From an archaeon (GTDB taxonomy: Archaea; Thermoproteota; Thermoprotei_A; Marsarchaeales; Marsarchaeaceae): a stretch of 43,235 nt of DNA. Position numbers and translations under genes: made by a program. The stretch lies in NCBI GenBank assembly GCA_902812505.1, contig CADDZQ010000006.1, positions 1 to 43,235 of the forward strand. Reading direction: 5' to 3'. Shown here in pieces: positions 20,421-25,426 of this stretch; position 1 is the first letter of the stretch; every line of letters begins with the position of its first letter. Below the pieces are notes generated by a model. That model worked only from the letters and a program-made list of their open reading frames with translations. It was not told the DNA's origin and did not search any database.

Positions 20421-21797
20421 TTAGCGCTTCGGGTTTTCGTTGTTGTCTGTTCCAAGAGTAGTGGCTGGGGTGGTGGGGTTTTGGAACAAGTAGTCAAGCG
20501 GCTTTGTCTCGTGGTCCTCCTTCCTATACACCCTCTTTCTAGTTATCCAGAGGCGTTTTTGCTCGTCGTATATTGTCTGAAGCGTACTGGTATAGTAGCC
20601 GTACTTTTCGAAGATCGCCTCGCTGAGTACCCCCCAGGCGGTCATCAGGAACTCGGATTTTAACTCCTTGCTCTTCCTGTATGATACTGATGAGGCGTCT
20701 GTGACCTCGTAGAAGAGTGTTCTCAGTGGATCCTCACTACTATAGTTTATCTCGATTTTCTCCGAAACGGAGGCAAGGTCAACCATTAACCTTAGGGACT
20801 CCTCTAAATCGTCTTTGACGAGCTTTAATCCCTCTTCTTCGAGTAGTTGAAGGGCGTACACTCCAGCTTTCCTGATTAGCTCGTCCGCTTTCCTCTCCCC
20901 GAATTCGTCCACTAGTATTTTTCCGAACGCGTAGAGCACAGTGTTATAGTATACCGAGGCCGAAGAAGCCACTCTTGAGACGTCTTCGCCTGATTTGATA
21001 AGCGAGATAATGCTTCCGATATCTGGTAGCTCGACCCATAGGAAGTCGACAAAGGAGATAATGTTCTCAGCCACTCCTTTATCTTTAATATAGATGAGGG
21101 AGTAGTCGGATGGATCCTGTGAGAGTCGGGCTGAGGATATAATAATCGTGGTCTTCCTGTCGATAACTATTAGGTTGTCCTCTGGCTCCTTGTGGACCAC
21201 GTGGACCTCAGCGAAATCCTTGAATCCCTCAAGTTTAGAAATCTGGTCCGCGAGTAGGGGTGCGATGATTCTGTTTTTAACCTTCCTATCATAGGCGGCT
21301 CTTAAATCTTCACGCAACTCTCTGAGAAGTCTGAAGCAGGACCTATTGAGCACCATGACGACCTCCTGCTCCGCTTGGCTGAGCTCATCCCTCAACGCCT
21401 TCGTTCCTTTGCTTTTTTCCTTTATTGTCCAGAACTCTTTTCGCTCAACGCCGTCCTTATCCTTTATTTGGCTGAAGAGGTCGATAAGCCTGTTTAGCTG
21501 TTCTTTCATCGAGTCGAGTTCATCTTTCTTCTTATCTAAGAGGGGCTTAAGCGTGATTTCGGGTGACACAGCCCTACACATATACTTCTTTTCAGGTAGA
21601 AATTCAACGAACCCCTTTTTCTGTAGTTTCCTTACGTTAGCGTAAACCTTGGTTCTTGGAACATTGGCCTTCTGAGCCAGCTCAGACATGGTGCATGGCC
21701 CGTTTTCAACTAGAGCCCAGTATATTCTGGACTCGTGGTCGCTTAAACCGAACTCTGAAAGGTCCTTTTGCTTGGTTGAGTGTTGGGAGTCGGGCAT
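20421..21797 (-). CDS. Large TrmB-family transcription regulator
   Basis: A 458-residue protein. Residues about 15-80 form a winged helix typical of TrmB: LSDHESRIYWALVENGPCTMSELAQ, then recognition region NVPRTKVYANVRKLQKKGFVE. A coiled coil (about 85-112) and a TrmB-like phospholipase-D-fold ligand region (about 125-255; VVMVLNRSCFRLL, NLIVIDRKTTIII) follow. Residues about 275-405 are an extra, mostly helical domain I cannot assign. It is divergent from the division operon across a 160-base gap, so control of that operon is an inference from position. The upstream TATA-like TTTATAAGT (about 21856-21864) and GGTGA before the ATG suggest a leadered transcript. Confidence 0.82.
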   Translation of the reverse strand: MPDSQHSTKQKDLSEFGLSDHESRIYWALVENGPCTMSELAQKANVPRTKVYANVRKLQKKGFVEFLPEKKYMCRAVSPEITLKPLLDKKKDELDSMKEQLNRLIDLFSQIKDKDGVERKEFWTIKEKSKGTKALRDELSQAEQEVVMVLNRSCFRLLRELREDLRAAYDRKVKNRIIAPLLADQISKLEGFKDFAEVHVVHKEPEDNLIVIDRKTTIIISSARLSQDPSDYSLIYIKDKGVAENIISFVDFLWVELPDIGSIISLIKSGEDVSRVASSASVYYNTVLYAFGKILVDEFGERKADELIRKAGVYALQLLEEEGLKLVKDDLEESLRLMVDLASVSEKIEINYSSEDPLRTLFYEVTDASSVSYRKSKELKSEFLMTAWGVLSEAIFEKYGYYTSTLQTIYDEQKRLWITRKRVYRKEDHETKPLDYLFQNPTTPATTLGTDNNENPKR

Positions 21798-21919: not shown

Positions 21920-21931
21920 TCTTATATTTAT
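21920..21931 (+). promoter_or_regulatory. TATA-like box of the division operon
   Basis: CTTATATTTATA lies 27-38 bases before the TTG at 21958, the usual distance of an archaeal TATA box from a leaderless start. It drives the ESCRT-III/cdvA/cdvB/cdvC genes. The adjacent gap to the TrmB gene is where a regulator would bind; no clear palindrome was found. Confidence 0.6.
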
Positions 21932-21957
21932 AGACTTGAAGATACGAAGCGATAATT

Positions 21958-22596
21958 TTGAGTAGGGATTTCGCGTCAAACTGGGACAAAAAAGATTCAA
22001 CCTCCACCACCGACCGGCTAAAGGAAGCTATAAGGCCTCCCGGCCCACTTAAGCCCAGAATTGAGAGTGCTCAAAGATCGCTTCAAATGCAGGTTCAGAG
22101 GCTCGACCAGATCAATAGTAGACTTGTTGAGCGCCAACGGGTGATGTTTGAGAAGGTTGTAGACGCCATAAGACGACACGATCAAGCCCGCGCCACCATA
22201 TATGCGAACGAGGTCGCTGAGATAAGGAAGATGGCGAAACTCATAATGCAGAGCAGGCTCGCGTTAGAGTCAATCATCGTAAGGCTCGGCACGCTCGAAG
22301 ACCTCGGCGACGTGATCACAAACCTCGCTCCAGCCATCGGTGTTGTCTCCTCGATTAGACGTAGCATCGGTCAGGTGACGCCTGAGGCCGACAAGGAGAT
22401 GGGTGAAATATCCAACCTACTTAGCAGTATACTAGTGGAAGCGGGTCAGACTGGTAACTATACGGTGAGCTTCGACACAGCTAATGAAGATGCGCAGAAA
22501 ATAATGGAGGAGGCGGCCGCGCTCGCGGAGACTAGGCTGAAAGACCAGTTCCCAGACCTGCCAACCTCCGCTTCATCCCAGCAGACCAGGCAGTGA
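21958..22596 (+). CDS. ESCRT-III (CdvB-type) paralogue without winged helix
   Basis: A 212-residue Snf7-like polymer-forming protein of the archaeal division machinery. After a polar N-terminus (1-30), the basic helical core runs about 32-160: QVQRLDQINSRLVERQRVMFEKVV, HDQARATIYANEVAEIRKM and LEDLGDVITNLAPAIGVV are typical of CdvB helices 1-4. The C-terminal helix EDAQKIMEEAAALAETRL is followed by FPDLP (198-202), which resembles the proline-rich MIM2-type peptide that binds the MIT domain of Vps4/CdvC. It has no winged helix, unlike the second ESCRT-III gene downstream. The TTG start follows a TATA box by about 27 bases, with cdvA 28 bases downstream. Confidence 0.9.
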   Translation: MSRDFASNWDKKDSTSTTDRLKEAIRPPGPLKPRIESAQRSLQMQVQRLDQINSRLVERQRVMFEKVVDAIRRHDQARATIYANEVAEIRKMAKLIMQSRLALESIIVRLGTLEDLGDVITNLAPAIGVVSSIRRSIGQVTPEADKEMGEISNLLSSILVEAGQTGNYTVSFDTANEDAQKIMEEAAALAETRLKDQFPDLPTSASSQQTRQ

Positions 22597-22623
22597 ATAC
22601 ATAAATTAGGAGAGTAGACCCAG

Positions 22624-23331
22624 ATGTCTCCTGGTTCGGGTAGAAAACTATCCGACGACTCCATGTCGCCTTCGAGGCATCTGGGTAAGACTGTTAAGGA
22701 CGAGTACAACAGAGTTGTCGGATGGGTAGCGGGCTTCTTCAACTATCTTCCAGAGTCAGAGGGGAGCCAGTCTGGTAAGGCGGAGTTCTACTTTGTGGTT
22801 CAGACGACTGATGGCTTCCAAGAAATACCTTCGAGCAGAGTGCTCTCGGTAGAGGAGAACTATATCATAGTCAAGTCCGAGCTCAAACAGAGCCTCAAGG
22901 AGACTAAGGATAGAATTGAGTGGCTCTATGAGAGGATAAGGGCTCTTGAAGAGGCTAGTACGAAGGATAACTCGGCGTCAGACGCCCCAGTGCTCACCGC
23001 GGCGCAACTCCAGCACAAGGTCAGGTTTAACTCACTGGTGGAGAGCATCCACCCTTTACTCGAGGTGGCTCAGAGGCGGGTGGATAGGCTACTTTCCGAG
23101 ATCGAGCTAATTGAGCGTGCAATGGTTGATTTGAACATAGCTAGAACCATGAATGAAATCGGTGAGAAGGATTTTGAGTGCTGGTCGAAGAGGCTTAAGG
23201 ATGGGCTCAACTCTGCTCACCTAGAGTTGAGCGACCTGGATGACCTAGTCAAATCGCTTTCACGGATAGAGAGGGAGTACAGGGATGTCTTCCGCGTTGA
23301 GATAGTGAGTGAGACAGATAGAAGGGAGTGA
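22624..23331 (+). CDS. cdvA: CdvA, archaeal cell-division membrane-recruitment protein
   Basis: A 235-residue protein with the CdvA layout: a PRC-barrel-like N-terminal domain (about 25-85; VVGWVAGFFNYLPE, EFYFVVQTTDGFQEIPSSRV), then long coiled coil (about 86-112 and 130-220). CdvA coats the membrane at midcell and recruits the winged-helix CdvB. In Sulfolobus, recruitment uses a short C-terminal peptide that adds a strand to CdvB's winged helix; here the last residues contain FRVEIVSE, a plausible strand of this kind. The gene lies between two ESCRT-III genes and overlaps cdvB by four bases (GTGA), so they should be translated together. CATAAATTAGG (22600-22610) may be an internal promoter. 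Confidence 0.85.
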   Translation: MSPGSGRKLSDDSMSPSRHLGKTVKDEYNRVVGWVAGFFNYLPESEGSQSGKAEFYFVVQTTDGFQEIPSSRVLSVEENYIIVKSELKQSLKETKDRIEWLYERIRALEEASTKDNSASDAPVLTAAQLQHKVRFNSLVESIHPLLEVAQRRVDRLLSEIELIERAMVDLNIARTMNEIGEKDFECWSKRLKDGLNSAHLELSDLDDLVKSLSRIEREYRDVFRVEIVSETDRRE

Positions 23332-24248
23332 GCTCAGCCGTGGGAACCCTGTATTTTGACTCTTTCCTCAAAAAGAAGAAAGACTTTAAGGATATTCTCG
23401 ACGAGGTTCTCAGGGTTCTTAACGAGCAGCAGGTTCAAATAAGGATGCGTATAGTGAGCCTTCAGCGTAGGGAGAATGAGCTTCTTAGAATGTGTGTGAT
23501 GCTTATACGTCGAAAGGATAGGGCTCGGGCTAGGATATATGCATATGAGACCGTTGAGATACACAGGGTTCTAAGTGTGCTCCAGAAGAGTGAGCTCATA
23601 GTTGAGGCCCTCAGGCTAAGGGTTGGGACAGCAAAGGAGCTCGGTGACGCCGTGGGCACGCTTAGACCGCTAGCGGATGCGCTTAGCAGGGTTAGAGCCC
23701 AACTCCAGGGCTTTGTCCCAGAGGTGGCTAAAAGCATGCAGCAGACAGCCGAGGCTCTAAACGAGGTGCTCAGCGTGAGTGTACCCGAGACAAGCATAGG
23801 CGACTTCTCCTCGCCGCTCAACACTGAAAGTGTGGAGTCCATACTGAGGGATGCCGAGGAGTTGGCGAGTAGGAAGCTTAGAGAAGAGTTAGAGAAGGTG
23901 GAGGAGGCAGACCTTAAACCCATAATCGAGTACATAAGGAGCAACGGTATCGAATCCATACAGTCTGTGGTGGACAACCTCGTCGACACGTTCTCGGTGG
24001 AGGGCTTAGAGGGTGTCGTAGAAGAAAATGTGAGTTCCTCTAAGGATGGTGGTCTACTATATGTTAGGGTTAACGAAACAGACTCCGAGATACCTAGACG
24101 CGTGTATGATTATATTAGGAGTAAGAATGGGGTGCTCGAGTTATCATCATGCTGTAAGGATCTCGGCATCAGTCGTGAATCCGTCATCACAGCTCTGCGA
24201 ACGCTTGAGTCGCAGGGCAAGATCAAACTCGACCATCAGCCAGCGTGA
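23328..24248 (+). CDS. cdvB: CdvB, ESCRT-III with C-terminal winged helix
   Basis: A 306-residue ESCRT-III protein. The basic core is at about 15-150 (QQVQIRMRIVSLQRRENELLRMCVML, KDRARARIYAYETVEIHRVL, AKELGDAVGTLRPLADALSRV), followed by an acidic linker (about 165-250). A winged helix, about 253-303 (RRVYDYIRSKNGVLELSSCCKDLGI, RESVITALRTLESQGKIKLD), should bind the CdvA tail. The linker contains the helix ESILRDAEELASRKLREEL, homologous to the one before FPDLP in the first ESCRT-III protein, but no proline-rich Vps4-binding core is evident here. It starts with GTG in the four-base overlap with cdvA and ends 17 bases before cdvC. Confidence 0.88.
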   Translation: MSSAVGTLYFDSFLKKKKDFKDILDEVLRVLNEQQVQIRMRIVSLQRRENELLRMCVMLIRRKDRARARIYAYETVEIHRVLSVLQKSELIVEALRLRVGTAKELGDAVGTLRPLADALSRVRAQLQGFVPEVAKSMQQTAEALNEVLSVSVPETSIGDFSSPLNTESVESILRDAEELASRKLREELEKVEEADLKPIIEYIRSNGIESIQSVVDNLVDTFSVEGLEGVVEENVSSSKDGGLLYVRVNETDSEIPRRVYDYIRSKNGVLELSSCCKDLGISRESVITALRTLESQGKIKLDHQPA

Positions 24249-24265
24249 ATCTTTGGTGAAAACCA

Positions 24266-25426
24266 TTGGCTTTGGCCGCCTCTGAACTTGAAGGCTTAGC
24301 TAAACGTTATGCTAGTGAAGCGGTGGCAGCGGATAGGCAGGGTATGCGGGGTAAAGCCATCACTAGCTACCAGCAGGCAATCGATGTCCTCAACAAGTTG
24401 GTCACACTCTACCCTGGCTATGAATTAAATGGGATATACATTCAGCGTATAAAGGCGTACCAAGAGAGGATAAGGCTTCTGAAGGGTGAGGTCTACGAGG
24501 ATGATGGTAGTGGGAGCAACCTTTTGCCAAGGAATCAGCAAAGCCCTAGTCAATCCCAGAAGAGCTCGTATGATGACCTGGTCATAAAGGAGAAGCCAAA
24601 TGTTAAATGGGAAGATGTGATAGGTTTAGAGGATGCTAAGAAGGCGATCATGGAGTCTATTGTGTACCCAACCAAGCGCCCAGATCTTTTCCCCCTCGGA
24701 TGGCCGAGGGGTATACTCATGTTCGGCCCCCCTGGTTGTGGTAAGACGCTTCTTGCTGCGGCAGCCGCCTCTGAGATTGAGGCCACGTTTATCAGTGTTG
24801 ACGCGGCTTCAATAATGTCGAGGTGGCTTGGGGAGGCTGAGAAGAATGTTGCGAGGATATTCGCTCAGGCGCGCTCAATCAAGGGTCCTGTTATAATCTT
24901 CATGGATGAGCTCGATGCGCTTCTTGGTATACGCTCAAACGAGGTGGGGGGTGAGGTTAGGGCTAGGAATCAGTTGCTTCAAGAGATGGATGGTTTAGCC
25001 GATAAGGGTAAGACGAACATGGTGTACGTTATTGGCGCAACAAACAAGCCGTGGGTTCTGGATGCACCCTTCGTGAGGAGGTTCCAGAAGCGTATAATGG
25101 TTAACCTCCCAGACTATGATGCTAGGATAAGGATATTCGAGCTTTACACAAAGAACCTCAGGCTTGCCGAAGACGTAGACCTCAAAGAGTTGGCTAGGTG
25201 GACAGAGAACTATAGCCCAAGCGATATCAGGGATGTTTGCCAGAGCGCCCACCTAATGGTGGTGCGAGAACTCTTTGAATCAGATCAGGCCAATAAGCCC
25301 GGTAGCATGCCACGCAGGATAACGATGGACGACTTCAAAAAGGTGTTAGAAAATAGGAAGCCAAGTGTGGCTCCGGACCTACTTGCATCCTATAAGACGT
25401 GGTACGACTACTATAAGGCGTTGTGA
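24266..25426 (+). CDS. cdvC: CdvC, Vps4-type AAA ATPase
   Basis: A 386-residue AAA ATPase that disassembles or remodels ESCRT-III filaments. It has an N-terminal MIT domain (about 1-75; LEGLAKRYASEAVAADRQG, AITSYQQAIDVLNKLV), a flexible linker with GSGSN and QSPSQSQKSS, then the catalytic module. Walker A is GPPGCGKT (154-161), the pore loop is SRWLGEAEKN with W187, Walker B is IIFMDELD (D214, E215). The second region of homology is GATNKPWVLDAPFVRRFQKRI with N260 as sensor 1 and R271/R272 as arginine fingers. The Vps4 C-terminal helix is present (YKTWYDYYKAL). All residues needed for ATP hydrolysis are present. A TTG start follows cdvB by 17 bases. Confidence 0.93.
   Translation: MALAASELEGLAKRYASEAVAADRQGMRGKAITSYQQAIDVLNKLVTLYPGYELNGIYIQRIKAYQERIRLLKGEVYEDDGSGSNLLPRNQQSPSQSQKSSYDDLVIKEKPNVKWEDVIGLEDAKKAIMESIVYPTKRPDLFPLGWPRGILMFGPPGCGKTLLAAAAASEIEATFISVDAASIMSRWLGEAEKNVARIFAQARSIKGPVIIFMDELDALLGIRSNEVGGEVRARNQLLQEMDGLADKGKTNMVYVIGATNKPWVLDAPFVRRFQKRIMVNLPDYDARIRIFELYTKNLRLAEDVDLKELARWTENYSPSDIRDVCQSAHLMVVRELFESDQANKPGSMPRRITMDDFKKVLENRKPSVAPDLLASYKTWYDYYKAL

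Follow-up and report, generated by a model that had tools for sequence, protein, structure and literature searches.

A winged-helix CdvB without an MIM2 motif in the Cdv operon of Marsarchaeota

Which ESCRT-III subunit of a Cdv operon docks on CdvA, and which recruits the ATPase CdvC? In Sulfolobales, the winged helix of CdvB binds the E3B tail of CdvA, and its MIM2 binds the MIT domain of CdvC (review PMC5840170). An earlier note on the DNA analysed here proposed that these two binding motifs are split between two paralogues, one binding CdvA and the other recruiting the ATPase. The window, that is, the whole stretch of 43,235 nucleotides, derives from Candidatus Marsarchaeota G2, a hot-spring archaeon, and its CdvC shares 99% identity with the CdvC of the MAG ECH_B_1 (record NEXG01000013). 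Marsarchaeia possess CdvABC, on which PMC9723716 says no more.

The cdv gene run and its two ESCRT-III proteins

The locus consists of four genes on the + strand: ESCRT-III #1 of the CdvB1/2 class (21958-22596; 212 aa, TTG start), CdvA (22624-23331; 235 aa), a CdvB orthologue (23328-24248; 306 aa, GTG start) and CdvC, a Vps4-like AAA ATPase (24266-25426). CdvA was recognised by the Pfam domain CdvA (PF18822) over residues 104-222, with 34.8 bits, above the cut-off. The CdvB gene lies between those of CdvA and CdvC and overlaps the former by 4 bp. The span considered in the earlier note (22547-24237), from the FPDLP motif to the winged helix, covers the first gene in part. About 25 bp upstream of the start codon of ESCRT-III #1, a TATA-like box, TTATATTTATAG (21922-21933, + strand), was read from the sequence and represents a possible promoter for the four-gene run. 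In addition, a TrmB-family regulator gene (20421-21797, - strand) is divergent from the operon and is a candidate for controlling it; a similar regulator occupies the same divergent position in genome G005 (L018:2190-3503).

The closest solved relative of ESCRT-III #1 is S. acidocaldarius CdvB2 (9s97), with an E-value of 9e-45 over a full-length alignment, compared to a weaker 5e-21 against CdvB, and in the tree it adjoins the CdvB1/2 group (92/82). It comprises an ESCRT-III core and a C-terminal MIM2 core without a winged helix, and fits the CdvB1/2 class of Frohn et al. 2022 (PMC8970359), which combines Snf7 with a two-proline MIM2 and no winged helix. The MIM2 core, FPDLP (residues 198-202; 22549-22563, + strand), is located immediately C-terminal to helix 5; the earlier note had placed it after a helix. 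The alignment pairs it with FPSLP of CdvB2 and with LPDLP of S. islandicus CdvB, the site at which MIM2 starts in Sulfolobus CdvB2 (KEKFPSLP) and CdvB (ELLPDLP). The core pattern, hydrophobic-P-x-hydrophobic-P, arises anywhere in ~5% of shuffled copies of ESCRT-III #1 and within the last 25 residues in 0.6%; as the orthologues in other genera of the family also carry FPDLP letter for letter, a chance occurrence was ruled out. Against the four-proline MIM2 consensus of Kojima, a motif that sits between helices 1 and 3 of the MIT domain, FPDLPTSASSQQTRQ has the core only, lacking the xxP-hydrophobic-P extension. FPxLP is near-universal among CdvB1/2-type proteins, and the FPDLP seen here is, by its sequence, nothing special but the usual MIM2 core of this class with its two prolines.

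The core of the CdvB orthologue matches S. islandicus CdvB (9s9j), with an E-value of 5e-16 by sequence and a TM-score of 0.86 on the target by structure. Its C-terminal broken winged helix (residues 254-300; 24087-24227, + strand), modelled by AlphaFold with a pLDDT of ~92, was superimposed by Foldseek onto the broken winged helix of S. solfataricus CdvB (2xvc) at 1.1 Å over 48 columns, with a probability of 1.00. A tandem winged helix, hinted at by a weak EAP30 match (E 0.0025), was ruled out, as the model has a single winged helix plus a separate helix. According to the alignment of 101 winged-helix CdvBs, MIM2 is expected at residues 188-196 (23889-23915, + strand), a segment devoid of proline: at the MIM2 position of S. 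islandicus CdvB (9s9j), the window CdvB reads EELEKVEEA.

Neither the MIM2 core nor the MIM1 consensus was found anywhere in the window CdvB. The earlier description of this protein, a C-terminal winged helix and no MIM2-like proline motif, thus stands. The MIM1 consensus was also not found in the four CdvBs tested, apart from one relaxed match inside the ESCRT-III core of one protein; MIM1 as a substitute for MIM2 was rejected, its consensus having no match in them. An assembly or annotation error, or an MIM2 frameshifted off the protein, was likewise rejected, given the same architecture in six genomes of four genera and frame-intact CdvBs without the core. Frohn et al. 2022 (PMC8970359) define the CdvB class by Snf7, MIM2 and a broken winged helix; the second protein has Snf7 and the winged helix but lacks MIM2, and we therefore call it an MIM2-less CdvB orthologue rather than a member of the class by that definition.

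Distribution of MIM2 cores in Marsarchaeota and related archaea

Ten genomes from two families represent the order. In the family of the window, the winged-helix CdvB lacks the MIM2 core in all six genomes (four genera), and every locus whose neighbours were read shows the gene order of the window, with FPDLP at the end of its first protein. Each family genome encodes four ESCRT-III paralogues, except G005, a small assembly that yielded three. The third groups with ESCRT-III #1 in the tree (100/100) and has LPDLP or FPDLP at its C-terminus; the fourth, on a long branch, has LPxPP. Three of the four paralogues thus bear an MIM2 core, CdvB being the sole one without, so the asymmetry proposed earlier holds in 6/6 genomes, whereas a two-way split between paralogues does not. 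Moreover, since FPDLP is the standard motif of CdvB1/2 proteins, nothing has moved there, and the change is a loss from CdvB. The Marsarchaeota CdvB group is solid in the tree (100/99); on its long branch, its placement among winged-helix CdvBs is weakly supported. In the sister family f2 (G006-G009, 62-80% complete), neither a winged-helix CdvB nor an MIT-domain protein was found, although CdvB1/2-like proteins are present.

The class set comprises 101 winged-helix CdvBs out of 229 genomes, in which the MIM2 position was counted relative to the alanine conserved in helix 5. A core lies at +7 to +15 in 63 of the 101, and 2 have one further downstream only. Another 28 lack the core yet retain a proline between +8 and +13 (e.g. 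LPEPEKL, LSPIPVQL). The remaining 8, with neither core nor proline, are the six Marsarchaeota proteins and those of two genomes of one genus in family f12, in which the loss is apparently an independent event. At these f12 loci (L218 and L219, genomes G177 and G176), CdvB continues as if helical where MIM2 would be expected. The joint presence of motif and winged helix that the earlier note ascribed to Sulfolobus CdvB was seen in all 31 CdvBs of Sulfolobaceae (family f9, so assigned because its CdvBs match those known from Sulfolobus).

Beyond the class, the core is present in 28 CdvBs (27 from Bathyarchaeota/Bathyarchaeum records and one from Methanomethylicia) and missing from 17 others, encoded by MAGs of deep Nitrososphaerota and their relatives; ten of these lack it completely. 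The Nitrososphaerota proteins checked do have a winged helix (profile comparison, probability 100, E 1e-39). The occurrence of MIM2-less CdvBs in Marsarchaeota, f12 and Nitrososphaerota suggests that the motif was probably lost from winged-helix CdvB more than once; Marsarchaeota are one clear, fixed case, and not a unique one.

The weakened cores of winged-helix CdvBs in several families, and the missing ones in the two other class genomes and several deep Nitrososphaerota, are compatible with neutral drift, in which the MIM2 of CdvB would be redundant among several MIM2-bearing subunits and be lost without a change in mechanism. However, overexpressed MIM2-less CdvB in S. acidocaldarius accumulates in wide, unconstricted rings (PMC10017037), which argues that the motif is not redundant there, and the segment that replaces it in Marsarchaeota is conserved rather than degraded. 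We thus regard drift as unlikely.

Three related systems allow a closer comparison. Deep Nitrososphaerota (e.g. L097, L101, L102) share with Marsarchaeota the MIM2-less winged-helix ESCRT-III beside CdvC and a CdvB1/2-type neighbour with a C-terminal core of the FPDLP/FPEIP type, yet they are a separate lineage, and CdvA was not recognised in their cluster. Their winged-helix ESCRT-III lies directly upstream of cdvC (L101:4135-4995, L102:4054-4989, L097:4144-4992, L089:4138-4986), in contrast to two surveys in which thaumarchaeal CdvBs are said to have no winged helix (PMC8970359, PMC11188069). Bathyarchaeia (L068-L124) have the gene order of the Marsarchaeota run (21958-25426), namely CdvB1/2, CdvA, winged-helix CdvB and CdvC, but their CdvB retains an MIM2 core (KLPEPP). 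The grouping of Marsarchaeota CdvC with those of Bathyarchaeia and Nitrososphaerota in the CdvC tree (96/91) fits the gene order common to Marsarchaeota and Bathyarchaeia; the named loci had been collected by Marsarchaeota CdvC patterns, so this sample is biased towards close relatives. Sulfolobales (S. acidocaldarius, S. islandicus and Metallosphaera sedula) resemble Marsarchaeota in the hydrophobic-alternating C-terminal tail of CdvA, the CdvB core with its broken winged helix, the two-proline CdvB1/2 paralogues and a single MIT-bearing CdvC. They differ in that Sulfolobus CdvB carries MIM2 (LPDLPHPP), absent from Marsarchaeota CdvB, and in the head of the operon, which in Marsarchaeota is a CdvB1/2-class gene.

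The MIT domain of CdvC and the tail of CdvA

The MIT domain of CdvC (24299-24484, + strand) is related, with an E-value of 7e-12, to the S. acidocaldarius MIT domain whose solved structure (2w2u) includes a CdvB MIM2 peptide. In a Pfam scan of CdvC, AAA and Vps4_C scored above their cut-offs and MIT reached 27.6 bits (cut-off 30); in the genome search, the same MIT domain rose above the cut-off with 31.3 bits. In each family genome, CdvC was the sole MIT-domain protein recovered, and a second Vps4 was ruled out by this single match. No FtsZ/tubulin-family match was found in the ten genomes of the order, several of which are incomplete, and FtsZ as the actual division protein was rejected on this ground, with the same scope. 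One MIT protein in each family genome and the failure to detect FtsZ make it probable that these archaea divide by the Cdv set, and that the MIM2 tails are the only known points at which the ATPase can grip it.

Human VPS4A relies on V13 to bind MIM2 and on L64 to bind MIM1 (PMC11218997). A hand alignment placed at the V13 position of Marsarchaeota MIT a small Ala16, as in Sulfolobus, and at the L64 position a polar Gln66, invariant in the family. From these two residues, the MIT domain of CdvC looks suited to binding MIM2 rather than MIM1.

This bears on a predicted helix specific to Marsarchaeota that replaces MIM2 in CdvB (residues 197-222; 23916-23993, + strand), followed in the AlphaFold model by a disordered stretch that leads to the winged helix. 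The helix may itself have become the MIT-binding element, in which case CdvB would be extracted directly by CdvC. It occupies the MIM2 site of the relatives, four Marsarchaeota genera share the pattern EYxKxNGIxSI in the segment beyond helix 5 (family alignment), and the helical MIMs of eukaryotes offer a precedent (PMC5840170). On the other hand, the pLDDT of the helix is only ~55, the hand alignment puts a polar residue where MIM1 would contact MIT, and the CdvBs tested gave no MIM1 consensus apart from the relaxed core match. We consider such an exchange rather doubtful.

CdvA ends in an E3B-like tail, FRVEIVSE (residues 223-230; 23290-23313, + strand), identified by comparison of CdvA tails, in which F-R/K-V-E-I is conserved across four genera. 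The tail directly follows the helical domain, whereas many other CdvAs, including those of Sulfolobales, insert a proline-rich linker before it. Outside Marsarchaeota, the CdvA tails (nearly all from Bathyarchaeia) bear an MIM2-like core in 25 of 27 cases, typically LPEPP before VVVYVKE; Bathyarchaeia CdvA (L068-L124, e.g. L069:3323-4057) thus holds an MIM2-like core and an E3B-like strand in one tail. No E3B-like tail was recognised in the few deep Nitrososphaerota CdvAs inspected. Two further CdvA-domain matches, both weak (22-23 bits, below the cut-off), lie in 563-aa frames at G000:C32:10752-11033 and G000:C4:43467-43751.

Docking of this tail onto the winged helix was modelled with CdvA and CdvB from genome G001 folded as one chain, the two genes being in frame, with the TAA stop read as Gln and the linkage acting as an artificial tether. 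The model has no strand at the CdvA tail or at the wing, and the tail has a pLDDT below 50, in a shallow alignment with only four sequences for the CdvA half. A mixed alignment with distant CdvAs was excluded, as these were misaligned onto CdvB.

CdvB also contains a conserved hydrophobic-alternating stretch just N-terminal of the winged helix, GLLYVRV (residues 242-248; 24051-24071, + strand; pLDDT ~32), which is strand-like and resembles the CdvA tail. Conceivably, this stretch could complete the broken wing in cis, so that CdvA would recruit CdvB otherwise or not at all. Its conservation in four genera, and stretches of similar character that precede the winged helix in Bathyarchaeia, speak for such an arrangement. 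Nevertheless, it pairs with the wing in neither AlphaFold model, and the CdvA tail retains a conserved VEI stretch of its own, which makes completion in cis highly improbable.

Division of labour and the removal of CdvB

Starting from what is directly observed, namely gene content, the presence or absence of motifs, their conservation and the winged-helix fold, we propose as the most likely arrangement a division of labour in which CdvB docks on CdvA and other subunits recruit CdvC. By analogy with the experiments in Sulfolobales, CdvB, devoid of MIM2, would dock on the CdvA tail through its broken winged helix, and CdvC would be recruited by the two-proline MIM2 tails of the CdvB1/2-class subunits, that is, the operon mate and the paralogue encoded elsewhere, perhaps joined by the fourth paralogue. 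The MIM2-bearing CdvB1/2-class subunits would co-assemble with CdvB, which would then be removed indirectly, as a passenger of extracted neighbours and/or by the proteasome. All six genomes of the family encode 20S proteasome subunits along with a PAN-type ATPase. The broken winged helix of S. acidocaldarius CdvB bears a cell-cycle degradation signal (PMC12909875).

This division of labour is favoured by six MIM2-less CdvBs alongside core-bearing paralogues, by the 2xvc-like winged helix together with the VEI tail of CdvA conserved in four genera, and by the single MIT protein, apparently suited to MIM2, the lack of a detectable FtsZ and the proteasome/PAN genes. It is also in line with published work on CdvB1/2: CdvC depolymerises filaments of M. 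sedula CdvB1, which raise its ATPase activity eightfold (PMC9542132), and deletion of MIM2 from CdvB1 or CdvB2 leads to division phenotypes (PMC10017037, PMC11796394). It is weakened by the low affinity for MIT of the two-proline CdvB1/B2 peptides of S. acidocaldarius in isolation (Kd >100 uM, compared to ~30 uM for CdvB; PMC5840170), by the missing tail-wing pairing in the tethered model, artificial and shallowly aligned as it is, and by the extra CdvB helix, which is conserved and could itself bind. Altogether, we consider it evenly poised whether anchoring and ATPase recruitment reside on different ESCRT-III subunits of one Cdv operon.

Ring constriction in S. acidocaldarius is regarded as requiring that CdvB first be removed by way of its MIM2 (PMC10017037). 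A native CdvB without MIM2 is of interest because, in Sulfolobus, constriction is blocked when a comparable truncation is overexpressed; with no detectable FtsZ, either CdvB is removed differently in Marsarchaeota or constriction proceeds without its removal. We tentatively suggest that either CdvC acts on CdvB1/2-class polymers only and CdvB exits otherwise, or CdvB has evolved a helical MIT-binding element. If the CdvA-anchored layer is never a direct substrate of CdvC, the order of disassembly in Sulfolobus would not hold in Marsarchaeota, and CdvB would leave by passenger extraction or through the proteasome. The definition of CdvB as Snf7 plus MIM2 plus winged helix, drawn from few organisms, fails to cover TACK archaea, and Marsarchaeota offer a natural counter-example for testing models of stepwise ESCRT-III disassembly.
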